A stretch of DNA of 50,820 bases. Source: a virus. Location: IMG/VR virus record IMGVR_UViG_3300050821_004725, positions 1 to 50,820 of that record. One strand, 5' to 3'. The translations under genes and the position numbers were made by a program. Position 1 is the stretch's first letter, and each line of letters begins with the position of its first letter. The notes beneath the pieces were generated by a model that made no database searches, had not been told where the DNA came from, and saw nothing but the letters and a program-made list of their open reading frames with translations. Shown in pieces: positions 1 to 50,820 of this stretch.

Positions 1-1580
1 GAAAAGTCTTTGGCATGGTCGATGACTCTGGCACAGAGACTGGACATATCGTGCAGTCAAAGAACAATAATTCGTTTCAAGTATATCAAGGCGGTAAGGT
101 CACAGGCAGTGGGAAACTTTCGGCTACGGACTTGCAGGATAAGTCAGTTACGTTCATGGGGAATAAGTATGCGCTGACGGATAGTACGACTAAAGCGATT
201 GAGGCGAACACACCGTTGCGTTATTACCATGATCCGCTGGTCAGCGCGATCCAAGGGAATATTAACTTGAATGAGGCTTTGCACAATGCGTCGTTTCTCG
301 AACAGCTCAAACACTCGCCTGAGTTTAAGTCTGTCACAGTCTCCCCTACCGGCACAGCGCCGAATGGGTTTAGAGAAGTTAACATTCCTCAGCTCAAAGG
401 ATATAAGTTCGATACGAAGGTTGCTGATGTACTCGACGACTTCTCGGGTCCGGCCCACACCGGTGGCTTCGCGGTGCTCAACAATGTGGCAAGAGCCACA
501 GTCGGATCACTGTTCTGGAACCCACTGCCACACGTAATGAATGTGCTGGATCATAAGATGATCGAAGGTGGGCTGGTGGGAAACTTGAAGGCTCTGACAG
601 TCGATCTGCCAAGCACTATCAAGACTGCGATAGCAGCCCACAACGATGTGATGACTATGTCGCCTGAGTACCGTGCAGCAATCAAGTCCGGCGCGGGACT
701 GATGTACCCAGCGCTGGCTACGCGGAACTTTGCTGAGAACATGGCGAAGGAACTGGGGACGGCGCCTGAGATGACGAACGTAGCCAAGGCTTGGGGCTAC
801 GCCAATCCCGCGGCGATGGTCAAGGCCATCTATGCCCACAGTGCGAAGTCGCTCTGGTCCTGGAACGACGTGATCATGATGCATGCTTATCGAACTCACA
901 TGGCCGGCGGAGAGTCAATGGAGGAGGCTATCAAGTCGGTGGAAAAGCATATACCGAACTATCGACTGCCTAGTGAAATCGCCGGCTCGAGGGCGTTGTC
1001 GCAAGTGATGCAGACAGTGCCGACCTTCGCGCGGTATGACTACGGTAGGCTGGCTTCGTATGGGAATATGGTGAAGGACTTGATCGGGCGGGACTCAAGC
1101 ATTGCGGATCGTGCACATGCATTGGATCAGATGGCTATGCTGGCTGTGTCTAGTGCGGTGATATATCCAGCTATGGACCATGCTATCCGCGCGGTGACGG
1201 GCAATGACGCAGCGAGTGTGCGGCGGTTTGGCGCGAACTCGGTGCCGCAGGCTATCTACAAGTTCAGCACCGGGCAAAGTGGGTACTCGCAACTGATGAG
1301 TTCGACATTGAGCCTAAGCCCCGCGTTGCGTATACCAGCGGAGTTGTTCTCGGGCAAAGATTCTTTCTCGGGCCAGCCGATATCAAAGAACCCTGCGAGG
1401 TATATTGGCGAGCAGATTCCGCCACTGGGTATTGCTGAGAGCGTAGTGTCCGGGCGCAAAGGTGCAGGGGAAGTCGCAGCTGCGCAAGTCGGGATTAACC
1501 TGCCTAGCAAGGAAGAGGTGATACGAAGAGACAAAGCTATCGCGCGAGACCAAAGGCGCAAAGCGAAGGAGGCACAATGA
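1..1580 (+). CDS. Large internal virion (DNA-ejection) protein, C-terminal part
   Basis: Open in frame from base 3, with no start needed: the codon formed by base 50820 plus bases 1-2 links it in phase to the frame starting at 49995. This gives one protein of about 801 residues, of which this is the C-terminal 525. The part contains a hydrophobic, Gly-rich stretch (GSLFWNPLPHVMNVLDH), a block around HIPNYRLPSEIAGSRALSQ resembling a conserved block of podovirus ejection proteins, and a strongly basic C-terminus (RDQRRKAKEAQ). By family such proteins are packaged in the head and enter the host envelope with the DNA. It is the third of three consecutive ejection-type genes, and its stop overlaps the start of the PurD-like gene (ATGA). 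Function is inferred from position and composition. Confidence 0.8.
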   Translation, partial: KVFGMVDDSGTETGHIVQSKNNNSFQVYQGGKVTGSGKLSATDLQDKSVTFMGNKYALTDSTTKAIEANTPLRYYHDPLVSAIQGNINLNEALHNASFLEQLKHSPEFKSVTVSPTGTAPNGFREVNIPQLKGYKFDTKVADVLDDFSGPAHTGGFAVLNNVARATVGSLFWNPLPHVMNVLDHKMIEGGLVGNLKALTVDLPSTIKTAIAAHNDVMTMSPEYRAAIKSGAGLMYPALATRNFAENMAKELGTAPEMTNVAKAWGYANPAAMVKAIYAHSAKSLWSWNDVIMMHAYRTHMAGGESMEEAIKSVEKHIPNYRLPSEIAGSRALSQVMQTVPTFARYDYGRLASYGNMVKDLIGRDSSIADRAHALDQMAMLAVSSAVIYPAMDHAIRAVTGNDAASVRRFGANSVPQAIYKFSTGQSGYSQLMSSTLSLSPALRIPAELFSGKDSFSGQPISKNPARYIGEQIPPLGIAESVVSGRKGAGEVAAAQVGINLPSKEEVIRRDKAIARDQRRKAKEAQ

Positions 1581-2884
1581 AAGTTCTGTTTATAGATGTG
1601 GATGGGGTCTGTGTGGATATGGCCGTGCGGAGCCAGTGGGCCGGCCATCAGTGCAAGGTATTTATTAGCCCACAGAAGTGTGACAACATCGGCAAGGGCT
1701 TGGTCATGCGGGTGAACGATTGGGAGGCTCACATGGATTGGGCGGACCTGATTGTGATGACTGGTGTGGGGAAGTATATGCGGAAGCTGGATGCTTACTT
1801 TGCCAAAGGCTATCCGATACTTGGCACGAACTGGGACGCGGCACAGCTGGAGATTGATCGCGAGTGCGGCATGGATTGTTTTGAGCGTGCGGAGATGGAT
1901 TGTTTGCCGTATCAGTCTTTCACCAGCCTCGACGATGGCATTGCTCACGTGAAGAAGACCAAGGGTACTTACGTCAGCAAGCCGTTGCATGACCATGCGG
2001 ACAAGTCCACCAGCTACGTCTCGTCTGGCCCCGACGATATGATCTTCATGATGGAGAAGTGGAAGAAGCAAGGCAAGAACTATCCGTTCATTCTGCAGGA
2101 AAAGCTCGATCTGATTGGCGAAGTCGGTGTCAGTGGCTGGTTCGGCCCTGGCGGCTGGTGCGGCGTCTGGGAAGAAGACTTCGAACACAAGAAGCTCATG
2201 CCTGGCGGCATCGGGCCTAACACTGGCGAAATGGGAAATGTATGCAAGTATGTAGACGACTCAAAGTTAGCGCAAGAATTTCTGCTCCCACTCACGGACA
2301 CCCTCCATGCGTTAAAGTTTGTTGGGAATTTCGCCATGGGTCTGCTCGTACCAAAGCACGGCCCACTTCATCCGTCAGAGTGCACGGCCCGACTTGGCTG
2401 GCCTATTACATTTATGCAGACGCACCTTCACAAACAACCTATGGTGGAGTTCTTTGCAGACCTGGTGCATGGGAAAGATTCATTAAAAGTTCGTAGAGAT
2501 CATACGTGTGGAGTGGTGATGGGGATCAAACCATTTCCGTATGAAAGTTTCGCGGAGCCGGATCTGTGCGAAGGCTATCCGTTGCTGAACATCACGCAAG
2601 AGGACATGGATCATGTGCATCTCGGACAAGTCCGCGCGGGAAAGTGTCTCGTCGGAGACAGGCTTAAAGAACAAGACGTGTTCGTCACAGCCGGCTGCTA
2701 CGTGGCATGTGTTGTCGACAGGGGACATACCGTTATGCAAGCTTGTGATCGAGCCTTCGAGCGGACAAAGAATATTCGTATACCGAACTCTCCCCTCTAC
2801 CGTAACGACATCGGTCATAAGCTGGCTGATACCATAGCCGCGTTGCAGAAGAAAGGCTATTGCGAGGAGTGGGTAAATGGCTAA
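1577..2884 (+). CDS. PurD-like ATP-grasp ligase homologue
   Basis: 435 residues, start overlapping the previous stop (ATGA). The ATP-grasp core of phosphoribosylamine-glycine ligase is recognisable: a GPNTGEMG motif (PurD usually GPNTGGMG), a preceding FILQEKLDLIGEVGVSGW strand with the acidic residue of the ATP site, and SECTARLGWP at the place of the metal-binding EFNxRFGDPE motif. The N-terminal domain starts MKVLFIDVDGVCVD and lacks the GxGGREHA phosphoribosylamine/glycine-binding motif of true PurD, so the substrate is probably different. It sits between ejection and fibre genes in the late operon, which argues for a role in virion or host-component modification rather than purine synthesis. 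The enzyme fold is fairly certain; the reaction is unknown. Confidence 0.8.
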   Translation: MKVLFIDVDGVCVDMAVRSQWAGHQCKVFISPQKCDNIGKGLVMRVNDWEAHMDWADLIVMTGVGKYMRKLDAYFAKGYPILGTNWDAAQLEIDRECGMDCFERAEMDCLPYQSFTSLDDGIAHVKKTKGTYVSKPLHDHADKSTSYVSSGPDDMIFMMEKWKKQGKNYPFILQEKLDLIGEVGVSGWFGPGGWCGVWEEDFEHKKLMPGGIGPNTGEMGNVCKYVDDSKLAQEFLLPLTDTLHALKFVGNFAMGLLVPKHGPLHPSECTARLGWPITFMQTHLHKQPMVEFFADLVHGKDSLKVRRDHTCGVVMGIKPFPYESFAEPDLCEGYPLLNITQEDMDHVHLGQVRAGKCLVGDRLKEQDVFVTAGCYVACVVDRGHTVMQACDRAFERTKNIRIPNSPLYRNDIGHKLADTIAALQKKGYCEEWVNG

Positions 2885-4645: not shown

Positions 4646-4858
4646 ATGCGTCCAGAAGAAGAAAAAGAAGTAGGCGTGATGGTGCGGGCAATATTGAGTC
4701 TGTGCAAGCAGATCCGCGCGGACGCGAGAGAGACCAACGAGGTGGTGAAGGAACTGAAGCTCTGGAGGAAGTTTGTCGTATGGGGCTTCGGTATTATCAC
4801 TGTTCTGATAACACTGCTGGAGTTTGCAAAGGATATACTGGGATGGCAGACGAAATGA
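4646..4858 (+). CDS. Small membrane protein of the lysis cassette
   Basis: 70 residues from the ATG at 4646, chosen because GGAGG lies 5 bases upstream; an ATG at 4634 overlaps the previous stop. Residues 1-45 are charged and helical, probably coiled coil (EEEKEVGVM...RETNEVVKELKLW). Residues 46-66 are one membrane span (VVWGFGIITVLITLLEFAK). The layout of cytosolic coiled coil plus C-terminal anchor, placed right before the endolysin, suggests a holin, antiholin or spanin-like accessory. Its end overlaps the endolysin start by 16 bases. No family was recognised. Confidence 0.6.
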   Translation: MRPEEEKEVGVMVRAILSLCKQIRADARETNEVVKELKLWRKFVVWGFGIITVLITLLEFAKDILGWQTK

Positions 4859-5322
4859 ATGCTAGGTTTCTTGCGTGTATCACCTTGATTATTAACCGAA
4901 TCGAAGGGGGGTATGTAAATGACCCACAGGATCCAGGCGGTGAGACAAAGTACGGTATCAGCAAAGCGTCGTACCCCAACCTTGACATTGCTGGTCTCAC
5001 CTTTGATCAAGCCGCGGCGATTTACTATAGCGATTACTGGGCTCCTAGTGGGGCTAGCGCTCTCGCTGGTCAGTTGGACTTGTGGTTGCTCGATGGCGCG
5101 ATTAATCACGGGGTTGATGAGGCTGTGAAGTTGCTGCAACGGGTGTGTGGAGTGGCGGAAGACGGCGCGCTAGGGCCTGAGACTGCCAATGCCGCGATTG
5201 CCCTAGCGGAGCCAGAAGTGTACCTGGTCGCCAGGGCTAATCATTACATGGGCCTTCCAGGTTGGCCTCATGATAAGAACGGGTGGATGAAGAGGTTGTT
5301 CATCATCGCGGAGGGATGCTGA
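4843..5322 (+). CDS. Endolysin, glycoside hydrolase family 108 (N-acetylmuramidase-like)
   Basis: 159 residues starting at 4843 (AAAGGA nine bases upstream; an internal ATG at 4855 is the alternative). The GH108 signature is clear: IEGGYVNDPQDPGGETKYGIS, with Glu21 of EGGY the expected catalytic acid, followed by a Trp/Tyr-rich helix (AAAIYYSDYW) and a peptidoglycan-binding_3-like C-terminal part (GVAEDGALGPETANA and NGWMKRL). It cleaves the glycan of murein. There is no signal peptide, so release depends on a holin from the same cassette. It is the last rightward gene and meets the helicase gene tail to tail with a 20-base overlap. Confidence 0.9.
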   Translation: MADEMNARFLACITLIINRIEGGYVNDPQDPGGETKYGISKASYPNLDIAGLTFDQAAAIYYSDYWAPSGASALAGQLDLWLLDGAINHGVDEAVKLLQRVCGVAEDGALGPETANAAIALAEPEVYLVARANHYMGLPGWPHDKNGWMKRLFIIAEGC

Positions 5323-16677: not shown

Positions 16678-16998
16678 TTAGTCCAAAAGAGCCAGTGGGC
16701 CACTCAAGCCAGCGCAGCAAGAAAGCGCCGGCAGTGGTGCGAGGTAGGACAGACGAGCTTGGACTAGCTCGGGGCTTGGTCCGGGTTCGGTTTGAATCAG
16801 CTCGCCGAGAGCAAAGTCAATAGCGGTGATGAAAGAGTCCATCTTGTCGTCGTGCGCCGCGAAGTCGACGCCGACCAAGAGCTTAGTCGCCACTCTGCAA
16901 TACTGTTGGTAAAACTCTACCGAAGAGAAATACTTCAGTTCGCCGCCGACCTTTGCTGCCACGCTGTGCCGCCGTGCGTTCGTCGATTCCCAAGGCAT
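16678..16998 (-). CDS. Hypothetical protein
   Basis: 106 residues from the ATG at 16998, which has a strong AGGAGGTG ribosome site. N-terminal MPWESTNARRHSVAAKVGG, then a helical core with many Asp (FAAHDDKMDSFITAIDFALGEL) and a hydrophobic Cys-containing tail (LPALSCCAGLSGPLALLD). No family was recognised. Confidence 0.65.
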   Translation of the reverse strand: MPWESTNARRHSVAAKVGGELKYFSSVEFYQQYCRVATKLLVGVDFAAHDDKMDSFITAIDFALGELIQTEPGPSPELVQARLSYLAPLPALSCCAGLSGPLALLD

Positions 16999-19482: not shown

Positions 19483-19513
19483 GCCAGCCCCCGTGGTTTG
19501 TTGAACCGTTGAA

Positions 19514-27737: not shown

Positions 27738-29273
27738 ATGGCGCGGAAGCCGAAGGACTATCCGTGGGAAACCGCTGCGGCGGAAAGGATTAGCTTAGAT
27801 GCTCATCTTATCGCAGGATTTTCTGAAACCTTTCTCGCTGCCGGATTCGACAAGGCAAAGCCTACTCCAGCATTCCACTATGATCTGTGGGAGTGGGACT
27901 GCAGCGCGGCAGAGTTGGGGGTTGCCGTGTGTCCTCGAGGACACGCAAAGACCACCGGCTCCACGATTACTTGTACTCTTGCCGATGTGCTTTTCGGCGC
28001 GGAAGACTTCGAGATGCTTATCGGAGTTAACGAAAAGAAAGCTGCCCAGTTCCTTGAAAACATCACCTATATACTGGAAGACAGTGCGTACCGGGACCTG
28101 CAGGAAGTCTTCCAAGTCCAAGTGCTGAAGTCGAATGAGACTGAGTTGGTGGGGCGAGTCAAAGGCCGTGAGTTCTGCGTCATGGCGCGCGGTGCAGGGC
28201 AGAAGGTACGTGGTGAACTGTGGCGGCAAATGCGGCCTGGGAAAATCCGGGTCGATGATCTCGAAGACGATGAGACGGTATTGAACGATCTCTCGCGCGC
28301 GAAGTTGAAATACTGGTTCATGAACGCAGTCTTGCCGGCGGTAAGCGACGAAGGCCAGATTCGAATGGTCGGCACGATTCTTCACGAAGACTCTCTACTA
28401 AACAACTTCCTGCATCAGTCGCAATTGTACGAGGCTGAACTCAGGGAAAAAGGCGAAGAGCCGACCTGGAATGGTTTCTACCGCCGGGCTCACAAGTCTT
28501 ACTCGAACTTCACTGAGCTGCTTTGGCCAGAGAAGTTCACGGAGAAAAAACTCCGTCAGATTCAGAAACGCTACGAGCAGCTGCGGAACAAGAACGGCTA
28601 CTCGCAAGAATATCTAGGCATAGCGATTGCCGAGGGCAATGAGTTCTACGTCAGTGAAGGCTTCATCCCGATGGAGGGTAAAGACTTCGAACGCTCAATG
28701 ACTATCTATGGCGCGATTGACTTCGCAGTCTCGGAAAAGAAAGACACAGACAACACAGCATTTGGCATAGCCGGCGTGAACTCGGACAACATCGCCTGTG
28801 TTCTCGAAATGCACGCGGACTTAATCGACACCCTCAAGGCAGCGGAAAAATGGTTCGAGCTCGATCTATTGTACAAGCCGGAATTCTGGATAGTCGAAGC
28901 GGAAAACATCGCGAAGTCTATCTTACCATTTCTCACTTTGATGATGCACGAGCGAAACCACTTCCTGCCGATGAAGCTCGTAAGCCCCAAAAACGACAAG
29001 AAAATGAGAGCCCGGAGTTGGCAAGCGAGACATGCTGCGCGTGGGGTCCGATACAACACTGCTATGCCTGGTGGTTTTGAAGAACTGAAGCAGGAGATGC
29101 AAGGCTTTCCCCGCGCGAAACACGACGACCGCGTAGACGTACTGAGCATGATAGGTATGGAGCTGGCGACAATGGTCCCTGCTCTGACCGAGGAAGAGCA
29201 AGATGAAGAAGATTACGACGAAATGGTTGCTACAACGGGAAGCACGGGCCGCAGCGAGACGACAGGTTACTGA
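27738..29273 (+). CDS. terL: Terminase large subunit (ATPase and nuclease)
   Basis: 511 residues. Walker A is PRGHAKTT (residues 66-73, Lys71); Walker B is KIRVDDLEDDE (169-179); coupling motif region FMNAVLPAVSDEGQIRMVGT. The nuclease domain begins at GAIDFAVSEKKDTDNTAFG (catalytic Asp) and ends with HDDRVDVLSMIG (about 460-471). It drives DNA into the procapsid and cuts the concatemer. If the genome is circularly permuted, as the closed reading frame suggests, headful cutting is expected. The ribosome site before ATG is weak. Confidence 0.93.
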   Translation: MARKPKDYPWETAAAERISLDAHLIAGFSETFLAAGFDKAKPTPAFHYDLWEWDCSAAELGVAVCPRGHAKTTGSTITCTLADVLFGAEDFEMLIGVNEKKAAQFLENITYILEDSAYRDLQEVFQVQVLKSNETELVGRVKGREFCVMARGAGQKVRGELWRQMRPGKIRVDDLEDDETVLNDLSRAKLKYWFMNAVLPAVSDEGQIRMVGTILHEDSLLNNFLHQSQLYEAELREKGEEPTWNGFYRRAHKSYSNFTELLWPEKFTEKKLRQIQKRYEQLRNKNGYSQEYLGIAIAEGNEFYVSEGFIPMEGKDFERSMTIYGAIDFAVSEKKDTDNTAFGIAGVNSDNIACVLEMHADLIDTLKAAEKWFELDLLYKPEFWIVEAENIAKSILPFLTLMMHERNHFLPMKLVSPKNDKKMRARSWQARHAARGVRYNTAMPGGFEELKQEMQGFPRAKHDDRVDVLSMIGMELATMVPALTEEEQDEEDYDEMVATTGSTGRSETTGY

Positions 29274-29488: not shown

Positions 29489-29549
29489 CGTGTGATTGCT
29501 GTGCTTGCGGGTATCCCATCTGGAATTGCAACTTTGACTGTGACATGTG

Positions 29550-31736
29550 ATGACCTGGGAAATAGACGAGGCAATTGACATTCACACGCTGGTCGCGTGT
29601 CCGAACATTTGCGAGCTAATGGACGCAGATGATTTGTCTCATCTCGGCTTTCGAGTGTGCGAGAATTTCGTCGCAGACCAAAACTCCCGCCGTGAGTGGG
29701 AGAAGCGAATGGGCAAGGCAATGGAACTGGCCTTGCAGGTTGTGGAAAAGAAAACTTTCCCCTGGGAAAACGCGGCGAATGTTAAGCTTCCTCTCATCAC
29801 AACTGCGGCGCTTCAATATCAGTCTCGCGCTTACCCTGCTCTTCTTAACGGCCCTATGCCTGTGGCCGCTAAAGCCATCAAGCCGGGGGATCAGCAAGAA
29901 GAAGCTCGCGCAGTGCGCATTAAAATGCATATGTCCTTTCAGATATTGGAGGAAATGCTCGACTGGGAAGAAGAACAGGACAAGGCTTTTTTGATCCAGG
30001 CCATCATGGGCTGTGTGTTTAAAAAGACTTGGTATGATCCTATTAGAGGTATCAACCGCTCGGTCTGCGTTAACCCGCGGGACCTGGTTGTCAACTACTG
30101 GGCCACGTCGGTTGAAGAGTGCCAGCGCGTAACCCACGTCATGTACATGTCTCACAACGCTGTTCGTGAGATGCAACTGACAGATCTCTTTTGCGAGTTC
30201 AAAGATGGTACCAAACATGCCCAACTCCCGACTCTACGCGACGGCAATGGTATCGACAAACGACAGGGTACTAACCCACCTCCCGTCGACTCAGACACTC
30301 CGTACGAGCTATTGGAACAATGCGTCTATCTCGACCTGGACAACGACGGGTACCGTGAGCCATACGTGGTTACAGTCCGGTATGATTCACGGCAGGTGCT
30401 GCGAATCGCCCCCCTCTACACCCGCAAAGACATCACCTGGACGGTACCGCGCAAAGGGAGTTCAAAAAAGCCCCAGGTTCTTCGGATTGCCCCTTGCGGA
30501 ATGTACACCAAATACACCTTCATACCCTCTCCTGATGGCGGCTTCTATGACCTCGGCCTCGGAGCTTTGCTTGGCCCGGTTAGCGAAATCATCGACTCTG
30601 CGCTCAATCAAATGCTCGATGCAGGCACGCTCCAGAATGCTGGCGGCGGGTTCCTCGGCAAGGGCGCGAAGCTCAAGAAGGGAGACATTCATCAAAGCCC
30701 AGGAAAGTGGACGACGCTAGACTGTATCGGCGCGGACATGAAGGATAACATTTTGCCCTTGCCAGTGCCGGCGCCGAGCGAGGCTTTGTTCAAACTCGTC
30801 CAGCTGTTGATCGAGTGGGGTCAGAATGTGATTGGCGCCACTGACCTTCTCCTCGGCGGCAACCCTGGCCAAAATACTCCTGCGCAAACGTCGCAGACCA
30901 TGGTCGAACAGGGAATGACTACCTTCAATGGAATATACAAGCGGACTCACAAAGCTTTCACCCGGGAATTACAAAAGCTCTTTAGACTCAATGTTAATTT
31001 CTTGGCAGATGGTAAGACTTCATACTATGACGCAAAGGGCAACAGCGCAGAGATATTTGACGCCGATTACTCTCCGACGGGAATCAATCTCATCCGTCCT
31101 GCGGCAAACCCGTTTTATATGTCAGATGTCCAAAGAATGAACCAAGCTCAGGCCATCTTCACCGCGTCGGTGCAAATGCCTGGGTTCGACCGTTATCAAG
31201 CGACCCTCTACTGGCTCGAAGCCTGGAAGGTCCAAGACCCCGATCGGTTTGTGATTAACCCTCAGTTCTTCCTCGACGACCAGAAGCTACAGCAAGCCGG
31301 CAAGCCTCCGAGCGGCAAGGTCCCCGCTGGCGCGCAGCCGATGCCGAATCCAAAGATGATGGAAGTTCAAGTCAAACAAGACCTCGCCGCCACCAAGAAG
31401 ATGGAAGCGCAAGGCAAGCTCAAGGTCATGATGGACGAACTCGAGCAACAAGAGTCCAAGCTGCAAGCAGAAATTGCCCTGCTTTCGGCTCAGGCAGCGG
31501 AGGCCATAGCAAACGCCGATGGGGTCAAAGAAGGCCACCAGATTGCAATGCTAGAAGCCCAGATAGGCGCGAAGAACTCGCACCTTGATTCAGTCATCAA
31601 GGCCATGTCTCTCGCGCATGAGATGATCAAGACCCAAGACAAGGGAGAGGAAGACGATGCCAATCGTGAGCACGAGAGATCAATGGCTAGCTTGGCAGCT
31701 AAGTCAAGTAACACAGGAAGTTCTGGCGGGGCTTAA
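29550..31736 (+). CDS. Portal protein (head-tail connector)
   Basis: 728 residues from the ATG at 29550 (a GTG directly before is possible). The N-terminal third (MGKAMELALQVVEKKTFPWEN, AALQYQSRAYPALL, MLDWEEEQDKAFLIQAIMG, WYDPIRGINRSVCVNPRDLV) and the centre (GPVSEIIDSALNQMLDAGTL, GATDLLLGG) follow the pattern of large portals of P22-type podoviruses. Residues about 600-690 form a long coiled coil (barrel-like) and the end is Ser/Gly-rich. Twelve copies form the DNA channel and dock the terminase. Longer than T7-type portals. Confidence 0.85.
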   Translation: MTWEIDEAIDIHTLVACPNICELMDADDLSHLGFRVCENFVADQNSRREWEKRMGKAMELALQVVEKKTFPWENAANVKLPLITTAALQYQSRAYPALLNGPMPVAAKAIKPGDQQEEARAVRIKMHMSFQILEEMLDWEEEQDKAFLIQAIMGCVFKKTWYDPIRGINRSVCVNPRDLVVNYWATSVEECQRVTHVMYMSHNAVREMQLTDLFCEFKDGTKHAQLPTLRDGNGIDKRQGTNPPPVDSDTPYELLEQCVYLDLDNDGYREPYVVTVRYDSRQVLRIAPLYTRKDITWTVPRKGSSKKPQVLRIAPCGMYTKYTFIPSPDGGFYDLGLGALLGPVSEIIDSALNQMLDAGTLQNAGGGFLGKGAKLKKGDIHQSPGKWTTLDCIGADMKDNILPLPVPAPSEALFKLVQLLIEWGQNVIGATDLLLGGNPGQNTPAQTSQTMVEQGMTTFNGIYKRTHKAFTRELQKLFRLNVNFLADGKTSYYDAKGNSAEIFDADYSPTGINLIRPAANPFYMSDVQRMNQAQAIFTASVQMPGFDRYQATLYWLEAWKVQDPDRFVINPQFFLDDQKLQQAGKPPSGKVPAGAQPMPNPKMMEVQVKQDLAATKKMEAQGKLKVMMDELEQQESKLQAEIALLSAQAAEAIANADGVKEGHQIAMLEAQIGAKNSHLDSVIKAMSLAHEMIKTQDKGEEDDANREHERSMASLAAKSSNTGSSGGA

Positions 31737-37273: not shown

Positions 37274-37282
37274 GAGTTTTAT

Positions 37283-37546
37283 ATGGCTTCTCCAGATGGT
37301 TCTACTACAGGCAACGTTTATCCTATACAGGATGCTGGTATAAACAGTTATTCTGTATATCCCAGCAATCAAGGAGTTATGGTGCAAACCATAGCTTATC
37401 AAATTGACCCGCCTACATCCACTATAGATTTTATTCTGTACTATGGTGGGGCTATTTATATCAAGTGTGCCAATGGTAATTGGTACGAGTACACCCCTGC
37501 GACAGCAAGTGGTGCGAGCTTTACTTCTACCAGCGATCCTCGCTAA
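37283..37546 (+). CDS. Small virion-type protein
   Basis: 87 residues, ribosome site TAGGAG before ATATG. Beta-rich with aromatics (YPIQDAGINSYSVYPSNQGV, IDFILYYGGAIYIKCANGNW). Belongs to the cluster of small structural genes. No family. Confidence 0.6.
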   Translation: MASPDGSTTGNVYPIQDAGINSYSVYPSNQGVMVQTIAYQIDPPTSTIDFILYYGGAIYIKCANGNWYEYTPATASGASFTSTSDPR

Positions 37547-37561
37547 CTCAGGGAGACTGTT

Positions 37562-38023
37562 ATGTCTGTTTACTCCGCAACGGTATCAAATACTCCGGTA
37601 TCGAGCATTACCAACGATATCATGACTCTGACACCTGCTGCTAATCGCCGCGTGCAGTTGATCGAGTTCACCGTCGCCGGCTGTGGTACGGCTTCGTCCG
37701 CAGCACAGATCAACGCGTATCAGGTGACTACGGCAGGGGCTAGTGGCTCAGGTACAATCACGTCGAACAAGTTTGACTTCTACGCGCCAGCGTCGGCGTC
37801 CACAGTCAGCACTGCGTGGACAACACAACCAGTAGTAGGCCAGCCTATTATTCCACTCGCGGTCAACGGCAATGGAGGCATATATCGTTGGGTGGCTCGG
37901 CCAGGAGAAGAGGTCTACGCCATTGGGGGGTTGGCTACGAACATGCAGATTTCTATTCGCGCTTCCCTCGCACCTTCCACCAACTTTACCATATCCATTG
38001 TCTGGGTCGAGGATCCGTTCTAA
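37562..38023 (+). CDS. Small beta-rich virion protein
   Basis: 153 residues, AGGGAG upstream. Patterns RRVQLIEFTVAGCGTASSAA, QPIIPLAVNGNGGIYRWVAR, PGEEVYAIGGLATNMQISIR resemble small head/tail surface proteins of other podoviruses. A structural role is inferred. Confidence 0.65.
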   Translation: MSVYSATVSNTPVSSITNDIMTLTPAANRRVQLIEFTVAGCGTASSAAQINAYQVTTAGASGSGTITSNKFDFYAPASASTVSTAWTTQPVVGQPIIPLAVNGNGGIYRWVARPGEEVYAIGGLATNMQISIRASLAPSTNFTISIVWVEDPF

Positions 38024-38061
38024 GCCAGCAACCGTTCCCACATCTGCCAGCAGGAATCAAA

Positions 38062-38526
38062 ATGGCCTCGTACCTTGGTATTTTTACTTGCTACGCAGAT
38101 TTGCCACAATCCTTCACCGCAGCTAACGCGGTAGGGGTTGTGGCTTTTGGTATCAGTCAATTTCTCACAAACGCCGGCTTGCAAGGTACATCAACAGTCC
38201 AGATCACCGGAACGTTCCCGAACCAAAGCGTAGCCTTTCCAACCATCGAGGGCTTTCAACTCTACAAACTAACAGTCAATGCGATTCTTCCAACAACAGT
38301 GCCGCCGACCGCGGCAGAGACCTACATCGCCACAGGCATTGCATGGTACCTTGCCGCGAATGGTTTCCCTGGCAATTGCAGTGCTACGTTAACAGGCACA
38401 GGCCCGACGGCGATTATAACTAACCCGACGCCAGTCGTTAACTTGGCAAGTTTACTAATGGCTGCGACGCTCACTGTCACAGCTAACCCGCCGATGGCCG
38501 CTCCTGTTATGATGACCACGTTATGA
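38062..38526 (+). CDS. Virion-type protein
   Basis: 154 residues from the ATG at 38062 (AGCAGGAA upstream). The frame is open upstream inside the previous gene but has no good start there. Thr/Ala/Pro-rich (GISQFLTNAGLQGTSTVQIT, EGFQLYKLTVNAILPTTVPP, ANGFPGNCSATLTGTG). Overlaps the fibre gene by four bases (ATGA), suggesting coupled expression with it. Confidence 0.6.
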   Translation: MASYLGIFTCYADLPQSFTAANAVGVVAFGISQFLTNAGLQGTSTVQITGTFPNQSVAFPTIEGFQLYKLTVNAILPTTVPPTAAETYIATGIAWYLAANGFPGNCSATLTGTGPTAIITNPTPVVNLASLLMAATLTVTANPPMAAPVMMTTL

Positions 38527-40658: not shown

Positions 40659-40663
40659 GAGCA

Positions 40664-42442
40664 ATGATGCAGAAATACCAAAATACTATTTTAACCACAG
40701 CTGGTACCCCAGCTGTTGGTGCTTCGGTAACAGTGCTTAACTACCCGTCGCTAAGCCCGGCTACGATCTATTCGTCTGTCACAGGTACGCCTGTCGCGAA
40801 TCCGCTGACGACAAGTGGAACAGGGTATTTTTCCTTCTACGCCGTGAACGGGCATTACACCTTGAGCGTTTCGGGTGGGAGCTTGCTAACGACACAGTTC
40901 ACGGATATTATACTCAATGATGGGATTAACACTGCGGGCTCGATCCAAGTCGGCGCGGGGTCTACGTGTGGAGTAAACACAACGATTCCGCTCCAGTCTA
41001 CCTCGTCCGGCACATACCCGTCGCAACTCCAAGTCGTCGGCGTCCCTGCGAATACGCTTGGCATCAACGGCCAAATGGACATTCAGTTCAGTGTTACTAC
41101 CTCCAACACCTCAGGGATAAAGAATTTTTACATCACCTGGAATGGTGTAGTCGTAGGACCGACTTTCAGCATTACTACGGAAGTCTCTACCACTGGGATT
41201 ATCCGAATTAGGAATGCAGGAGCAACCAACGCCCAGGTAGTGTCGGTGCTTTCGACTGACGGACAGTCTACATCAGCCTTTCCTACCTTGTCTATGGATA
41301 CGACTAAGTCGTCTCTTGTCATCCTATGGGGCGCGTGCGCGACCAATGCAGATAGTATTAACTTGTCCGGCTTCAATGTCACCTACTACAATCCGCCTGT
41401 CATTCCCACTCCGCCTCCGTTGATCCCAGGTTCGACTATATTCTGGGGCGTGAACTCACATCCGGATGAATTCACCAGTGGCCCAGATTTCTTGCAGTGT
41501 ATGCAGTTGTTGAACTGCGGCATTCTTCGGCTGGATTGGGCGAGCCCCACAGACAACGCGAACATCATTGCGACTGCCAATGCCTTCGCCGGCACAGGGA
41601 TACAGCTGTACATATTGGTCTCTACCACGGGGATGAACAGCGCGGTGAATACGGCCTACACAAGCGAAGCCGCCGCGTACTCAGCCAACTTTACCCTAGC
41701 CCAGACTTGTGCCACTGCGCTTATACCTCACGGCATAACCTTGTTCGAATGTGCGAACGAGCTCGACGCTGCACTATGGGGCTCGACCGAGATACGCACT
41801 CCGGGTGTTTTTGTGCAGGGCACCTACAGCGCTGATTATATATCTGGCTCTTTCTTTCCAATCTTTCGCGGAGCCTGCAATGGAACCACGGATGGTGTAC
41901 GGGCTGCTGCTACTTCTCTTGGAGCAACTAATGTCCTTGTTGCTTCTAATGCCTTTACTAACGCGTCGATCTGGCTAAGTGATGCGCTGTGGACCGGCAC
42001 AGACATCAATGGCACACCAGGCTTCCAGCCTTGTAAGTGGGATATCACAGCCTGGCATGCTTACGGCAACGCGACAATGCTTGGACCGGCGACACAGTAT
42101 TCCGGGGGCGGCGGAACATCGAACTTCAACTTGCTCGAATACATCTCTAACGCCTACGGAAAGCCTATTATTATCAGCGAGTTTAACCCTTCGCTAACCC
42201 CAGGCTCGACCAACGCCTCTACCACTACTTCATGGATGGCGGCTTGGCTAGCCGTCCAAGCCCAGTACAACATAGCCAGTGTGATGTTCTATGACCTGTT
42301 TGACGTCGGTAGCGGCCAGCCTGGTACAACCTACTATAACCTGTATCTTGCTAACTCCCCGCCGTTTAACAACACATCGAACCTCAACGCAACAGGCCTT
42401 GCATTCAAAGCCTTTACCGCAGCTAACCCAGCCCCGCGCTAG
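40664..42442 (+). CDS. Tailspike with GH-A clan glycosidase-like domain (depolymerase candidate)
   Basis: 592 residues (a second ATG at 40667 has better spacing). Residues 1-75 are a virion-binding head of tailspikes (QNTILTTAGTPAVGASVTV, TSGTGYFSFYAVNGHYTLSV). Residues 80-250 are beta-rich. From about 255 a TIM-barrel pattern follows: FWGVNSHPDE, CGILRLDWASP, FECANELDAALW with Glu366 as acid/base candidate, WDITAWHAYGN, and KPIIISEFNPS with Glu506 as nucleophile candidate, then VMFYDLFD. This is the clan GH-A order. It probably cleaves a host capsule or exopolysaccharide at adsorption; the sugar is unknown. Confidence 0.8.
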   Translation: MMQKYQNTILTTAGTPAVGASVTVLNYPSLSPATIYSSVTGTPVANPLTTSGTGYFSFYAVNGHYTLSVSGGSLLTTQFTDIILNDGINTAGSIQVGAGSTCGVNTTIPLQSTSSGTYPSQLQVVGVPANTLGINGQMDIQFSVTTSNTSGIKNFYITWNGVVVGPTFSITTEVSTTGIIRIRNAGATNAQVVSVLSTDGQSTSAFPTLSMDTTKSSLVILWGACATNADSINLSGFNVTYYNPPVIPTPPPLIPGSTIFWGVNSHPDEFTSGPDFLQCMQLLNCGILRLDWASPTDNANIIATANAFAGTGIQLYILVSTTGMNSAVNTAYTSEAAAYSANFTLAQTCATALIPHGITLFECANELDAALWGSTEIRTPGVFVQGTYSADYISGSFFPIFRGACNGTTDGVRAAATSLGATNVLVASNAFTNASIWLSDALWTGTDINGTPGFQPCKWDITAWHAYGNATMLGPATQYSGGGGTSNFNLLEYISNAYGKPIIISEFNPSLTPGSTNASTTTSWMAAWLAVQAQYNIASVMFYDLFDVGSGQPGTTYYNLYLANSPPFNNTSNLNATGLAFKAFTAANPAPR

Positions 42443-42451
42443 GAGACGACT

Positions 42452-42931
42452 ATGGGCCGCGCAGACTTTTGGCAACCCGGCGGTTGGAACATGCTGTGTG
42501 TTGTCTGTGGCTTCAAGTACAAGAACACTGATATGAAACTTCGGTGGGACAATGTGTGGACTTGCCCGGACGATTGGGAACGTAGGCAGCCACAGGACTT
42601 TGTCCGCGGCGTGAAGGATCAGATGTCAGTACCATACGCGAATCCGGAGCCGACCCCGACGTTCAGCGGCGACATACCGGTACCGACTGGAGAGATTGTT
42701 CTAGGTACACCAGCGGTCTTCCTGAACGGCGTCATGACCGCGGCTTACACAATCCAGCTTCCCTACGGCGCCATCACTTTCAACACCGCGCCAGCGGATG
42801 GTACCAAGATCCAGTGGGAAGGTATTTGGATTCATAACTCTGGCGCGCAGCAGCGTTTCGCAACCCCGTTTCAATTCGCCCTTGGCGACGGCTTCACGAC
42901 GAAGTTCAACATCTACTGGAGCTATATCTAA
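42452..42931 (+). CDS. Zinc-knuckle virion-region protein
   Basis: 159 residues. The N-terminal 50 contain CVVCGFKYKNTDMKLRWDNV and WTCPDDWERRQPQDF, a conserved phage motif with C-x2-C and a later Cys that binds zinc. The second half is beta-rich (GEIVLGTPAVFLNGVMTAAY, QRFATPFQFALGDGFTT). Found in many phages beside tail or portal genes. Probably a structural or assembly factor. TAATG overlap with the connector. Confidence 0.7.
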   Translation: MGRADFWQPGGWNMLCVVCGFKYKNTDMKLRWDNVWTCPDDWERRQPQDFVRGVKDQMSVPYANPEPTPTFSGDIPVPTGEIVLGTPAVFLNGVMTAAYTIQLPYGAITFNTAPADGTKIQWEGIWIHNSGAQQRFATPFQFALGDGFTTKFNIYWSYI

Positions 42932-43659
42932 TGGCCACCGCTTTTCCGGTCACACAGAACCAGATCATCATTGCGACGATGTTGGAGCTCGGGGCGTTGG
43001 ATCAATCGTCGCAGCCAAACCCTTACGACTACTCTAACATTAGCTTCGCGCTGAACCTTTTACTCAAGACCTGGATGGCAAGTGGCATCGCACTGTGGAA
43101 GGTGTCGACGCTGCAGCTTCCATTTGTGGCGAACAATCAGACTTACTACATCGGTCCGAGCGCGACAGGCCCAGGCGCGCTAGTGACCGACAGGGTCTTG
43201 CGCGTGACTGAGGCAGAGATTGTGAACAACAGCTCGCTGCAGTCCATCGACCTATGGCCACTTGCGCGCGAGCAGTTCGTTGAACTAAGCGGGAAGTTCA
43301 CTTCATTAGGAGTCCCTACGCAGTACTGGTTCGAGCCTCTTGGAAGCGAATTGAACAGCCCTAACTCTCGTATAACGTTCTACCCAATACCGGCTGACAC
43401 TACGTTCACCGCGTATTTGAAAGCCTTGCAACCGCTCACGAATGCGGTTAACCTGTCGGATGTGATTGACTTTCCGTCTGAGTATTATTGGCCCTTCATC
43501 AAGTGTCTGTCGTATGAGCTAGCTAATCAATACCCGGTATCGAGCGAACGTTACGCTCGAATCGAGAAACGCGCCATTGGCCAGCTCGAGCTAATCGAAG
43601 AATGGGGCCAAGAGCAAGACGTCGAGGTCCGTATCAAGTTTGACCGCAGGGGGCACTGA
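42931..43659 (+). CDS. Head-tail connector/tail tubular A-like protein (P22 gp4 type)
   Basis: 242 residues. Helical N-terminal half (TMLELGALDQSSQPNPYDYS, FALNLLLKTWMASGIALWKV) and a C-terminal helix bundle (DFPSEYYWPFIKCLSYELAN, RIEKRAIGQLELIEEWGQE), the usual layout of P22 gp4/T7 gp11-like adaptors. It binds under the portal and holds the nozzle. Placed immediately before the nozzle gene, as in other podoviruses. Confidence 0.8.
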   Translation: MATAFPVTQNQIIIATMLELGALDQSSQPNPYDYSNISFALNLLLKTWMASGIALWKVSTLQLPFVANNQTYYIGPSATGPGALVTDRVLRVTEAEIVNNSSLQSIDLWPLAREQFVELSGKFTSLGVPTQYWFEPLGSELNSPNSRITFYPIPADTTFTAYLKALQPLTNAVNLSDVIDFPSEYYWPFIKCLSYELANQYPVSSERYARIEKRAIGQLELIEEWGQEQDVEVRIKFDRRGH

Positions 43660-46517
43660 TGGCTGATCAAGCGCCACTTCGGCTGCAAGTGATTGAGCAG
43701 ATCAACAGCCGTGATACGACATTGAACTATGACTCTAAACTCGTCAATGGGCTGGTTGAGCAGGGGCAGCTCGGTCCGCGCGCGGTGAAGCGGGCAGGAT
43801 ATAGCATAGCGTTTGAAGGAGAAGGAGGAACTGGTCAGGGTATTGTGAATTACAACGGTACGTTGTATGGGGTCTCGGCTGATTTTCTGAATCAGTACGG
43901 TGGAGATGCCTCCATCGCGCCAGTGCAGATCCAGCCCAATGCAGCCTTTGGCCCACGAGAGGGCGCGGCTATTGCCGGCTTCCTTGGCCAGCTTTTCCTC
44001 ATCGGCGGAGACAATGGCATTGGTATGTTGCTTAACGACGCATGGACTTCGATCGATGGTATTACCTGGAACCCGCTAGTCGGCGCGCCAGCTGGCCGAA
44101 CCTACGGCAAAGCTATTGTGCTAAACAACGTGCTGTTTGTCATGGGCGGGCAGGCTGCGTCCGGTGCTTTCTTGCACGATGTATGGAGCACACCAGACGG
44201 AGTCACATGGACGGAGGTTACCGCCTCGGCTCCGTGGGGTGGACGGGCGGACTTTGAAGTCCAGTTGTTCAACGGGGCAATATATCTCGCCGGCGGTCAA
44301 GGGCTTCCCTCGCCATCTGGCATTCCGTCAGACGGCCTGTGGCACGACGTATGGACGACTCCAGACGGGACCAACTGGACCGCGCAGAATAAATCCTGCC
44401 CTTGGATTGGCCGGCGGAGGTTTGGATTCTTCAACGTTGGGACTACGATGTATGTCCTCGGCGGGTTCATGGGCAACGGGAGTAATACAAACTTCCAGAA
44501 CGCAGTGTCGGACCAATGGGCTTCGACAAACAACGGCGTCACGTGGACTCGGGTGAATACAAATCCGTTTGAAGTCGGCGGCTGCCCCATGTACCCGTTG
44601 ACTGTGATTACGTCCATCGGCTTAGGAGAGGTGTACGGTACAGGTGCGACTGTGACCAACGGTGTGGGCGGTAGTGGCGCGGCAGCCTACGCTTACGTTG
44701 ATGACGGGGATCAAGGCGCAGACGATATTAACTACTATCAAGTGAAGACTGTCACGTTTACCACAGTTGGCTCAGGCTATACCACACCTTGTACGTTTGT
44801 TTGCAATGCGCAAGGCGCAGGTATTCCCGCAGTCGGTTATGCGTTTATGGACGGTAGCTCAGTCAGCGGCGGTAGAGCTGGCGAGGTTGTGTTTGACACA
44901 ACGAATAGTCTGTATTACTTCTTCACCACTTACATCAACGGCGCGCAGTCGAACGAAATATGGACTTCCCCAGATGGAGTAACCTGGACGTTGTTCACCT
45001 CCGCGCCAGGGTATGCAACACGTTCAATGCAGGCAATTGTCTACGGCGACGTCTTTATCATCGGCGGTTTTAGCTCTGCCACCAGTACAGCCTTCAATGA
45101 CGTATGGGCGCTGGAAGCCGGCTCGACCAGCTTTCCGCTAAACCCTACGGTCTCTAACGAGTTCTACAACTTTAATCAGACATCAAATGGCCTTGCCACT
45201 CCATACCTTGTGTTCAAGTCTGCGCACCAAGGTTATTACTTCAGCGCCGCACTCGCTTCTCTTAATCGAATCACCAGTGCAAATTACCCCGCAGTTACAG
45301 TCTATGGTTTGGTTTATCTCGACACTACCTTCTACGTCATGGACCCTAACGGAAAGATTTGGGGCTCTAACCTAAACGATCCGACGAACTGGACCGCGCT
45401 GAACGAGATTGCGATTCAGAACGAACCAGACGGGGGAGTTGGTATTGCCAAGGTCGGACCGTACTTGGTCGGCTTTGGCCAGTGGTCGAGCGAATTCTTC
45501 TACGACAATGCTAACGCGGCACCCGGCTCTCCGCTTAGCGCGAACTCGACTCTAGCCTACCAAGTCGGTTGTGCTTGCGGCCGTAGCATATGTGAGATGG
45601 AAGGCTCTGTGATCTGGGTAGGCCAGACGAGTACCGAGGGCGCGAAAGTCTACGTGATGCAAGGCTATACGCCTGTCGTTGTGTCGACTCCGTTTGTCGA
45701 CCGCATTATTCAGAACGACCCACTCACTCTCGCGCAGTCGTTTGCCACGACTCACTTCGGCCATCCGTTGTATGTATTGACATTGTTGACAACAGGTGTT
45801 ACACTGGTCTACGACTTTGGTTCGCAGGATTGGTATACCTGGAACAGCTCAGTACCAGCAACGCCAGTCACAGCCACGTCGCTGAGCGTGTTGTCACTTA
45901 GCACTCCGACGTATGCTACGGCTGTAGTAAGCACAGCGCCGTTGTCGCATGGCTTGCAAGACGGTGATCCGGTAAATATCTCCGGCACCGTGCAGCCTCA
46001 ATACTCAGGCTTTTACAATGTCAATGTTATTGACTCAATGACTTTCCAGTACACAATCAGTGCCACAGCTACACCAGAAACCTTCGCCACGATACAAAGT
46101 TGGACTATCACTCCCTATCAACCTATCGACAGTGCTGAGCTAACCGACGTCGACTACATGCAGGACCCAAGCAACGGCAACGTCTATGCGCTGACCTATG
46201 GCACAGGCAGCGACAATGGCAACCCCATAGACTTTAACATTGTCACCCCGCGCTGGGACGGCGGTGTCATGTGGAAGAAGTTCATTCGCCGCGTAAGCAT
46301 TGTCGGCGATGCTACCTCCAGCAATGTGCTTGTCCGCAGGACTGAGACAGATTACCAAAACTGGATGCCCTACCGCATGATCAACATGCAAGCTTCTTGG
46401 CCTTTTGCCAACTCCTTCGGCATGACCACGCGCACGGCTTTCCAACTCCGCCACACAGCTTTCACGCCTCAGCGACTCGAGGCATTGGAAATTGAAACTG
46501 AGACAGGTGTAGGATGA
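43659..46517 (+). CDS. Tail nozzle-like protein with Kelch-like insertion (tail tubular B/P22 gp10 type)
   Basis: 952 residues, overlapping the connector stop. The N-terminus (RLQVIEQINSRDTTLNYDSK, LVNGLVEQGQLGPRAVKR) and residues about 560-952 (VYGLVYLDTTFYVMDPNGKI, LVGFGQWSSEFFYDNANAA, MWKKFIRRVSIVG) resemble nozzle proteins of P22/Bcep22-like phages. Residues about 95-490 are an insert with at least five Kelch-type blades: GGDNGIGMLLNDAWTS, MGGQAASGAFLHDVWST, LAGGQGLPSPSG, LGGFMGNGSNTNF, IIGGFSSATSTAFNDVWAL, each followed by DGVTW or a similar turn. The insert may contact sugars, proteins or the fibre. Confidence 0.8.
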   Translation: MADQAPLRLQVIEQINSRDTTLNYDSKLVNGLVEQGQLGPRAVKRAGYSIAFEGEGGTGQGIVNYNGTLYGVSADFLNQYGGDASIAPVQIQPNAAFGPREGAAIAGFLGQLFLIGGDNGIGMLLNDAWTSIDGITWNPLVGAPAGRTYGKAIVLNNVLFVMGGQAASGAFLHDVWSTPDGVTWTEVTASAPWGGRADFEVQLFNGAIYLAGGQGLPSPSGIPSDGLWHDVWTTPDGTNWTAQNKSCPWIGRRRFGFFNVGTTMYVLGGFMGNGSNTNFQNAVSDQWASTNNGVTWTRVNTNPFEVGGCPMYPLTVITSIGLGEVYGTGATVTNGVGGSGAAAYAYVDDGDQGADDINYYQVKTVTFTTVGSGYTTPCTFVCNAQGAGIPAVGYAFMDGSSVSGGRAGEVVFDTTNSLYYFFTTYINGAQSNEIWTSPDGVTWTLFTSAPGYATRSMQAIVYGDVFIIGGFSSATSTAFNDVWALEAGSTSFPLNPTVSNEFYNFNQTSNGLATPYLVFKSAHQGYYFSAALASLNRITSANYPAVTVYGLVYLDTTFYVMDPNGKIWGSNLNDPTNWTALNEIAIQNEPDGGVGIAKVGPYLVGFGQWSSEFFYDNANAAPGSPLSANSTLAYQVGCACGRSICEMEGSVIWVGQTSTEGAKVYVMQGYTPVVVSTPFVDRIIQNDPLTLAQSFATTHFGHPLYVLTLLTTGVTLVYDFGSQDWYTWNSSVPATPVTATSLSVLSLSTPTYATAVVSTAPLSHGLQDGDPVNISGTVQPQYSGFYNVNVIDSMTFQYTISATATPETFATIQSWTITPYQPIDSAELTDVDYMQDPSNGNVYALTYGTGSDNGNPIDFNIVTPRWDGGVMWKKFIRRVSIVGDATSSNVLVRRTETDYQNWMPYRMINMQASWPFANSFGMTTRTAFQLRHTAFTPQRLEALEIETETGVG

Positions 46518-47404: not shown

Positions 47405-48748
47405 ATGCCAGCAGCATGGGTAGGGGCAGCGGCTAGCGCGGTGGGGGCTGGTGAGAGTTTGTTCGGCGGTGGAGGGGGGAGTTCGTCTAGCGGTAGCTCG
47501 TCGAGCACGGGTACAGGCGGGTATGGTGACCCAGGGTCGTTGATCTCGGGTGGACTGAGTGCGGCTCTCGGGTTGAACCAGTTGCTCGGGTCAGGTTCCA
47601 CCACGGTGCAAGGTAGTGCGCAAGCTGGCGCGGTGGCTGCGAACCCAGCTGGGCAATTTGCCCAAGGCTATGAGCCAGCATTGCAAGCACTGTTGCAAGG
47701 CCCAGGGCTGACTAGCCAGATACTCGGGGACCAAGGCGCGGAAGCCGGGTTGCTCGAAAGCTTGCTGGGAAGTGCGAATATAGGGACGAACACTGGCGCA
47801 CTGCCTACCAACGTAGGGACGAACACGACTGCGCTTGCGGGCCTTACCAACGTCGGTACGCCAACGCAGAACGCGCAGCTGCAAGCGCTAGTGAACAACC
47901 CGACGCAATTGATTAAGACTTTGCAGGGAGGCGGAGTATCGACGCCGGCGAGCTTGGAAGCCGTGGCGAACCAGAACCCGTATGGGCTGAACGCGGGGGA
48001 ACAATTCCAAGAGACCCAAGGTGAGCAGGCATTAAACCGAAGCCTGGCGCAAACCGGCCAAACAGGCTCGGGCAATCAGCTTGTCGCGGCGGAACAGTAC
48101 GGGCAGAATTTTGCTTCCCAGTCTCAGGCGGCTAACATTGCCCAGATGGAAAGCGCGCAAGGTACGATTAACCAAACTGCACAGACGAACCAAGGTCTGC
48201 AAGCCATAGTCAATAACATGGGGCAGACGCAGTTCGGCGAGACGGCATCGTTGGCGAGCCTGCTGCAGGGGCAGAACCAAGCGAATTTCTCTAACACCCT
48301 CGGCACACAGCAACTGGAAACACAAGAAGAGCAAGGGACGTTTGCGAATACGTTGCAGCAACAGCAGCTCCAAACACAGCAACAAACAACGAGTCAGACT
48401 AATTTGCAAAACCTGCTGTCGCAATTGATCGGACTAAACACCACAGCCACAGGCCAAGAGATCGGCGAGTTGAATCCGTTGCTGAGTGCAACTGAGACCA
48501 ACCAATCGAGCCCGTCGTCGGCTGGGCAAATTTTGTCGGAAGAGTTTGCGAATGCCAACAACGCGGCAGGGAATGTGACTTCTGGTATAGGTGGGATTGC
48601 TAATGGATTGGCTGGCGCGACAAACAGCATTAACAGTATCGTCAATGGCTTCGGCGCAAGCGGTAGCGAAAACCCTGGCGCGGCATCGACATCAACTCCG
48701 GATGATCTAATCTCCGGCTTTACCGGCAGTGTGGGAGGTGACTTCTAA
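47405..48748 (+). CDS. Internal virion/ejection protein 1
   Basis: 447 residues. N-terminal Ala/Gly/Ser-rich (AAWVGAAASAVGAGESLFG then a Gly/Ser run), followed by Gln/Asn/Ala-rich helical stretches (GEQFQETQGEQALNRSLAQT, QTQFGETASLASLLQGQNQ), with no membrane anchor. Composition and the first place in a three-gene block match podovirus ejection proteins (P22 gp7/T7 gp14-like position). It would enter the envelope to help DNA passage. Confidence 0.65.
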   Translation: MPAAWVGAAASAVGAGESLFGGGGGSSSSGSSSSTGTGGYGDPGSLISGGLSAALGLNQLLGSGSTTVQGSAQAGAVAANPAGQFAQGYEPALQALLQGPGLTSQILGDQGAEAGLLESLLGSANIGTNTGALPTNVGTNTTALAGLTNVGTPTQNAQLQALVNNPTQLIKTLQGGGVSTPASLEAVANQNPYGLNAGEQFQETQGEQALNRSLAQTGQTGSGNQLVAAEQYGQNFASQSQAANIAQMESAQGTINQTAQTNQGLQAIVNNMGQTQFGETASLASLLQGQNQANFSNTLGTQQLETQEEQGTFANTLQQQQLQTQQQTTSQTNLQNLLSQLIGLNTTATGQEIGELNPLLSATETNQSSPSSAGQILSEEFANANNAAGNVTSGIGGIANGLAGATNSINSIVNGFGASGSENPGAASTSTPDDLISGFTGSVGGDF

Positions 48749-49998
48749 TGGCTGCGTTCATTCCGATTTATCAAGGATATGTGGATGCTGTAAGGCAGAA
48801 TGCTGAGGCTAAGTTAGCCAAGCAGGATCTGGTTATACACCAGCTGCAAGGGCAGCAACAGCTGATTGACATACAGAACCAGATCCAAGAGCGAAAGATT
48901 GCCGCGCAGGTGTGGGGACAACAAGGGACGACGCCGGATACGGCTGGCGCAGGGGATGACCCAAGTGAGCAGAACGCGGCCAGGATGGACAAGATGGCGC
49001 AGGCGCTGGCACCGGTTAATCCCAAGGCGAGTCTCGAATGGGCCACCAAAGCCAGCACGCTGCGAGACCAAGTCGCTACGCGGAAGAAGGATCAACTGGC
49101 CGCTGGTGCAGCGCAAATGAAAGCTGTGGGGGACTTGTTCGGCGCGGTGAAGGATCAAGCCGGGTATACCGCCGCGTTGCAGACGCTGGCTTCCCAAGGC
49201 GTGGATATTACTAAGTTTCAATTGTCGGGTCAGTTGGACCAAGATACACCGAAGCTCGAACAGCTTGCTAAGGGATCGCAGACGTATAGCGAGAAGCTCA
49301 CTGCCGCGCACCAGAACGTTACGGAAGACCAAGCACAGGCTAACTACCTGGAGAAGGTTCGACATGACCGGACTGATGAAGGCTTGAAGGGCGCGCAGAT
49401 AAACCTGCAAGGCCGATCGCTTGCGTTGCGGGACTCGGTCGAGAAGTCCAACATGGATTATAAAGCTCGTAGTGATGCTCGCGCGGCAGCGGGCTTTCAA
49501 CGATCCACCGACATGGATCTGGCCAAGGCGCAGGCGCAGGCAGGAAGGCCGACACCGGCGGATAAAGCCTATGTGGACAGTTTGATCGCGAGTGATCCGG
49601 TGTTGAGCACACTGCCTGACAACCAGAAGAAGGCTGCGGCTAGCGAGATGGTGCTGAGTGCCCGATCCAAGCTGGCTAAGGGAGTGAAGAAACCTGGAGA
49701 CTTGCCTAGTGCGGATGACTTCATGGGTGCGGTGGATGAGGTGAAGCAGGATATCAGCAAGCGAGTGACGAAGGGCAATGAAGGCACATGGTTTGGTATT
49801 GGCAAGAAAGACGCTACCTTAGCCCCGCGCAATGCCGGCAGCACAGGCACTGCCAGCAAACCCGCCAACAAACCGCCGTTACCTCCGACTGCCAACAGCC
49901 CCGCCGACTTGGCGAAGGTAGGCATCGGCGACTCGCTTATTATCAAAGGCAAGCTGTATAAGAAAATCAGCGCGACTGAAGTGGAGCCGATAGAATGA
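48748..49998 (+). CDS. Internal virion/ejection protein 2
   Basis: 416 residues, TAATG overlap with the preceding gene and ATGA with the next. Long helical heptads (AKLAKQDLVIHQLQGQQQLI, DIQNQIQERKIAAQVWGQQ), Lys/Ala/Asp-rich centre, and a C-terminal Pro-rich linker (NKPPLPPTANSPADLAKVGI) with a short beta end (LIIKGKLYKKISATEVEPIE). Typical of middle ejection proteins (P22 gp20-like position). Inferred. Confidence 0.6.
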   Translation: MAAFIPIYQGYVDAVRQNAEAKLAKQDLVIHQLQGQQQLIDIQNQIQERKIAAQVWGQQGTTPDTAGAGDDPSEQNAARMDKMAQALAPVNPKASLEWATKASTLRDQVATRKKDQLAAGAAQMKAVGDLFGAVKDQAGYTAALQTLASQGVDITKFQLSGQLDQDTPKLEQLAKGSQTYSEKLTAAHQNVTEDQAQANYLEKVRHDRTDEGLKGAQINLQGRSLALRDSVEKSNMDYKARSDARAAAGFQRSTDMDLAKAQAQAGRPTPADKAYVDSLIASDPVLSTLPDNQKKAAASEMVLSARSKLAKGVKKPGDLPSADDFMGAVDEVKQDISKRVTKGNEGTWFGIGKKDATLAPRNAGSTGTASKPANKPPLPPTANSPADLAKVGIGDSLIIKGKLYKKISATEVEPIE

Positions 49999-50820
49999 AT
50001 ATCAATGATGCCTTCGCCGCGCAACCAAGCGATACCCCTCCGCTACCGTCTAGCCCTGGCAGCAAAGCCATTCCCGTGTCTTCCCTCTTTGGAGGAGGCG
50101 ATGACCAGCAAAAGCAAGAGACGAGCCCACTTGGACAGTCAAAATCAGCACTTCCAAAAGCGGAAGAAAAGCAAGCGCTTGCGAGCCCTAGCGCTGCTGC
50201 GCCGAATCCGCCAAGCCCAGGCGACGTGCAACGAAACGTCAATGATCTCGAAGGAGGAAAGCGAGATATAATGGGAAAGGTGAAGGCGCAGTTTGAGAAG
50301 GAACTGCCGACGGCGGAGAATATGTCAATGGGTTTTGCTATGGGAGACGTAGCAGGGCCATTGAAAGGTGTGAAGGCGGCTATCAACGCGGTGACTAATC
50401 GCTCGGCCGGTGTGTCGAGCCTTAACGCGGTGACCTCCGTAGCCGGCGACACAGTGCAGAAGCTGAGCGACAGCCTATATACCCTGGGCAAAACAAACAC
50501 TGGCATGCGTATGCAGTGGTTGACAGATGTAAAAAACTTTCTACCGAAGGACTGGGCAGAGCACGCTGAGAATATTTACCATTCGTTCGAGGATGCGTCG
50601 GCCAAACTCTCGCCTCGCGCGCAAGAGTTGAAAGACAAAGCCGTAGCCCCGATCATGGCGAAGAACGCAGTGATGCTCCAAAAGCTTCGTGTGCTAGGAG
50701 TTCAAGTTGGCCCTGACGTGGAGAAGTACATCAGTCGTGTGCCCATTGGCAAGAGCTCGCTCATTGACACAATCCAAAGCGTCGTGCCTCAGGGAAAACC
50801 GAGAGGCATCAGCACGTTTG
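49995..50820 (+). CDS. Large internal virion protein, N-terminal part (continues at base 1)
   Basis: ATG overlaps the previous stop. Open for 275 codons to the window end and continuing in phase at base 1. Residues 1-90 are Pro/Ser/Gln-rich (AFAAQPSDTPPLPSSPGSKA), then a Gly/Ala segment (MSMGFAMGDVAGPLKGVKAA) and long helices (WLTDVKNFLPKDWAEHAENI, KLRVLGVQVGPDVEKYISRV). With 1..1580 it totals about 801 residues. The largest ejection protein is usually the last of the block, as here. Confidence 0.8.
   Translation, partial: MNINDAFAAQPSDTPPLPSSPGSKAIPVSSLFGGGDDQQKQETSPLGQSKSALPKAEEKQALASPSAAAPNPPSPGDVQRNVNDLEGGKRDIMGKVKAQFEKELPTAENMSMGFAMGDVAGPLKGVKAAINAVTNRSAGVSSLNAVTSVAGDTVQKLSDSLYTLGKTNTGMRMQWLTDVKNFLPKDWAEHAENIYHSFEDASAKLSPRAQELKDKAVAPIMAKNAVMLQKLRVLGVQVGPDVEKYISRVPIGKSSLIDTIQSVVPQGKPRGISTF

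Follow-up and report, generated by a model that had tools for sequence, protein, structure and literature searches.

The window, meaning the whole stretch of DNA that was analysed, corresponds to an entire IMG/VR virus record, whose length is exactly 50,820 bases, and represents one metagenome-assembled contig. A gene for a terminase large subunit marks the contig as a tailed phage, and one late gene, hereafter the crossing gene, is distributed over the two contig ends, in the midst of the following features.

27738..29273 (+), terminase large subunit, late-module start
29547..31736 (+), portal protein (SU10_portal / PHROG 1216)
42931..46517 (+), genes for an adaptor (SU10_adaptor) and for a head-closure protein of Hc3 type, both ahead of the crossing gene
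48748..49998 (+), gene before the crossing gene, encoding 416 aa, in a structural-module position, with a 4-base overlap with the crossing-gene start
49995..50820 (+), crossing gene, 5' part: 275 complete codons and base 1 of a following codon that encodes Ala in every relative
1..1580 (+), crossing gene, 3' part: bases 2-3 of an Arg codon, 525 codons, stop at 1578-1580
1577..2884 (+), next gene, a PurD/GARS-like ORF, with a 4-base overlap (ATGA) with the crossing gene
4702..5322 (+), endolysin-like gene (glycosyl hydrolase 108) that closes the late module after the junction
16713..16809 (no strand), cut site of a related genome, G002; the window has this stretch once, without a break

The late operon begins at 26.7 kb, crosses the junction and ends at 5.3 kb, with the capsid gene lying between the SU10-type portal and the SU10-type adaptor in the listed order. 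The terminase had no relatives in the PDB. The N-terminal half of the Hc3-type head-closure protein, encoded at 43659-46517 (+), matches Kelch repeats, with PHROG 578 (Hc3) found at 524-731, and the PurD/GARS-like protein of 1577-2884 resembles the phosphoribosylglycinamide synthetase C domain with a score below the Pfam cut-off.

The preliminary description of this DNA held that a frame beginning at 49995 reaches the last base and passes in phase into a frame ending at 1580, and both ORFs are as it described them. The first (49995..50819, +) has 275 codons and an open 3' end, the second (3..1580, +) has 525 codons and an open 5' end, and base 50820 together with bases 1-2 reads GGA, so that a stop is absent. 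When the ends are joined as a circle, the crossing frame is open for 806 codons, compared to 99, 25, 36, 60 and 35 codons for the other five frames. The agreement in phase and openness is beyond chance, as had been proposed, because only 981 of 101,640 positions on either strand (0.97%) precede a run of 525 open codons or longer in the phase considered. The two ends show no exact overlap, and the terminal 3-kb segments have no 16-mer in common. A frame that stays in phase from one contig end to the other is a sign of adjacency and not of direct abutment, and a gap whose length is a multiple of three is indistinguishable from abutment until relatives are aligned.

Such relatives were found by scanning IMG/VR with the joined protein, which yielded five records from three lineages, each with the whole protein in one uninterrupted frame. 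Identity over the best segment of the crossing protein is 86% in two records that are nearly identical to each other, 59% in one, and 54% in two overlapping fragments that show no difference along 8.6 kb. The preliminary description had named a homologue that fails to span the junction as an observation that would count against it; all five (G001 to G005) run through the window's junction point. Two of them, G002 (IMGVR_UViG_3300050821_008276) and G001 (IMGVR_UViG_3300021181_000039), have the same gene order as the window and an intact crossing gene, with aligned blocks mostly at ~77-93% nucleotide identity, but are cut at other places and carry an extra 18 nt where the window has its junction. 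G002 is of the same length class (50,756 bp) and, unlike the window, has a 97-bp end repeat. The third, G003 (IMGVR_UViG_3300045012_000081), is a full-length genome of 50,046 bp from a more distant lineage, with a crossing-protein homologue at 59%; its own ends fall within the split polymerase gene described below, with a 7-bp overlap, at a cut near 9.1 kb of the window. One likely tail-fibre/receptor region of the window (37072-42442) has no nucleotide similarity to G002, although its flanks align at 81-85%, a pattern that probably reflects module exchange.

The additional 18 nt are common to all five records. The relatives' consensus at the junction is GIST[F/Y]-A-P-E-x-Q-[A/S]-R-K-[V/I]-F, whereas the window's join reads GISTF-G-KVF, such that a single fused codon stands in place of the seven codons A-P-E-x-Q-[A/S]-R present in every relative (5/5 records). 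In the alignment of the relatives, A276, P277, E278, Q280, R282 and K283 are invariant. At the nucleotide level, window position 50820 corresponds to G002 position 33086 and window position 1 to G002 position 33105, with 18 nt between, and G001 likewise has 18 nt between the positions matching the window's ends. The Ala codon (GCG) supplies its base 1 as the final base of the window, and the Arg codon (AGA) supplies its bases 2-3 as the window's opening two bases. The phase looked right because the gap seen in the relatives is a multiple of three. Thus the glycine codon that the preliminary description had split across the junction is not real, the Ala base 1 having been fused to Arg bases 2-3 across an 18-nt gap; the 801 residues that it gave for the joined protein fall six short of the gene inferred for the window, for which 275 + 7 + 525 = 807 is the codon count; and its direct abutment of the ends in a circle of 50,820 bp is at odds with every relative. 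Most likely, as read from the aligned sequences, the gene crossing the ends encodes ~807 aa and the circle is ~50,838 bp.

An 18-nt in-frame deletion that arose naturally in this virus would also keep the frame and create no stop, and the ends would then abut exactly in a circle of 50,820 bp that encodes 801 residues. The residues lost are, however, among those invariant in three lineages, and gaps of at least 9 nt between the window and G002 number only 9 in 33,480 aligned columns. Because indels of such size are so rare (9 in 33.5 kb), a chance deletion located exactly at the contig ends, where it must coincide with the contig break, is very unlikely, and this reading is accordingly considered improbable. 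We infer that the 18-nt difference reflects an assembly gap rather than a deletion. The assembler would have halted at either edge of a short segment within one late gene, leaving a contig that would be the whole genome minus ~18 nt, and the Gly codon at the join would be an artefact composed of base 1 of one codon and bases 2-3 of a codon six further on. A pattern scan for the junction flanks with 0-30 nt between them, from which near-identical records may have been left out, yielded no contig of the same virus that spans the junction; its hits were the two 86% relatives alone, each in the longer form.

Ends that do not overlap set no limit on the length of a gap, and introns can occur in phage genes, so that on general grounds the contig might be linear, its ends separated by a longer insert that was left unassembled, such as a mobile intron or a homing-endonuclease insert. 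Against such an insert, the stretch at the junction is exactly 18 nt in 5/5 relatives, and the total lengths of the full relatives agree within ~2%; its likelihood is placed slightly below that of exact abutment. Far less probable than either, and close to negligible, is a linear packaged genome whose physical termini coincide with the contig ends, as these ends fall inside a conserved gene and G001, G002, G003, G004 and G005 all run through the point, and no evidence favouring physical ends was found.

The assembly-gap reading is accompanied by a circular map that extends to the other full-length genomes. The 97-bp repeat at the ends of G002 is exact, with a breakpoint near 16.7 kb of the window. 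When the ends of G003 are joined via their 7-bp overlap, the polymerase reads ...FVGASGIELSLMM..., matching the window's FMGASGIELSLMM, and only the overlap join does so. The three full-length genomes are therefore cut at three places, each reading through the cuts of the other two, and as circles their lengths are 50,838 (window), 50,659 (G002) and 50,039 bp (G003). By the CheckV criterion of a direct terminal repeat 20 bp or more in length (PMC8116208), the window lacks such a repeat and G002 has one (97 bp). The authors of CheckV state that end repeats often arise from the assembly of circular or concatemeric templates and that odd repeat lengths often reflect assembler k-mers (PMC8116208). 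Because end repeats are often assembly-derived (PMC8116208), the circular map does not tell permuted packaged DNA from fixed repeats. Of the earlier proposal of a complete circular genome, the circular map and essential completeness stand, with five relatives continuous at the junction and other genomes broken elsewhere, while exact closure does not, ~18 nt being missing. The two ends are neighbours within a single gene, and the comparisons thus support the window as the essentially complete, circular-map genome of an uncultivated tailed phage.

Two annotated phages share part of this organization. The nearest annotated record by terminase is MW202796.1, 'Myoviridae sp. ct2os315' from Manatee Spring, a circular record of 43,832 bp whose TerL, portal, major capsid and PurD-like gene are 34%, 41%, 63% and 40% identical to those of the window. 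Its PurD-like homologue comes immediately behind the gene that holds the ejection position, as in the window, which supports the gene order across the window's junction; unlike the window, the crossing-gene position is occupied by a 505-aa protein with no detectable homology. Alcaligenes phage vB_Af_QDWS535 (OK172329.1), a circular record of 50,121 bp, has homologues of the window's terminase, portal and capsid, and also resembles it in a two-gene family A polymerase and in a TerL frame that crosses the record's own ends, but lacks a homologue of the crossing protein. The end-crossing terminase frame of OK172329.1 is annotated as two separate CDSs.

The family A DNA polymerase of the window is split over two overlapping frames, 7453-9204 (-) and 6759-7487 (-), that account for 583 aa and 242 aa. 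It is split in G002 and G003 as well, with the overlap nearly unchanged in nucleotides between the window and G002, and two or more polymerase CDSs are listed in each of QDWS535 and MW202796. A frameshift error as the cause of the split was rejected, since the split is conserved in G002 and G003. A further protein, encoded at 18760-19620 (-), has an apparent signal peptide and the look of an outer-membrane beta-barrel; it has no Pfam match, and the region is 81% conserved in G002.

Less can be said of the crossing protein itself. It matched no PHROG at E<=10, no Pfam family at 0.05 and no PDB entry in a meaningful way, and no homologues were found among 50,697 phage records (INPHARED) or in GTDB genomes, the latter leaving no link to a host or prophage. 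A sequence-family match to ejection proteins of the P22 gp7/gp16/gp20 type was not found, nor was a relation seen when its profile was compared with the proteins at the equivalent position in MW202796 and QDWS535. An AlphaFold model of an intact homologue, built with five sequences, is mostly helix but has a mean pLDDT of 37.9, too poor for a fold search. Within the late module the gene comes later than those for portal, adaptor and head closure, as would suit an ejection protein. The ejection-protein label of the preliminary description therefore fits by gene position and finds no match for the protein in PHROG, Pfam or the PDB. From gene position only, the product is fairly likely to be an internal virion protein of ejection type; it would be mostly helical, with its gene preceded by those for adaptor and head closure and followed by the lysis gene. 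The chances are judged even that the 807-residue protein represents an undescribed internal virion family, seen to date in no phages but uncultivated ones of this lineage and characterized by a strict APExQ[A/S]RK motif, and if that is true, the contig break happens to remove this very motif.

The account as a whole, a circular-map uncultivated tailed phage with an assembly gap of ~18 nt in a late gene that encodes a product of ~807 residues, is held with high confidence. The near-closed genome is an ordinary outcome of metagenome assembly, useful mainly for annotation, and the phage is new and uncultivated with an otherwise ordinary genome. The preliminary description had considered gene absences to be informative, and this is borne out by relatives that are continuous across the junction: with all but ~18 nt present, absences of genes from the window can be taken as real, and the late operon can be read across the contig ends as one module, with the joined protein corrected.
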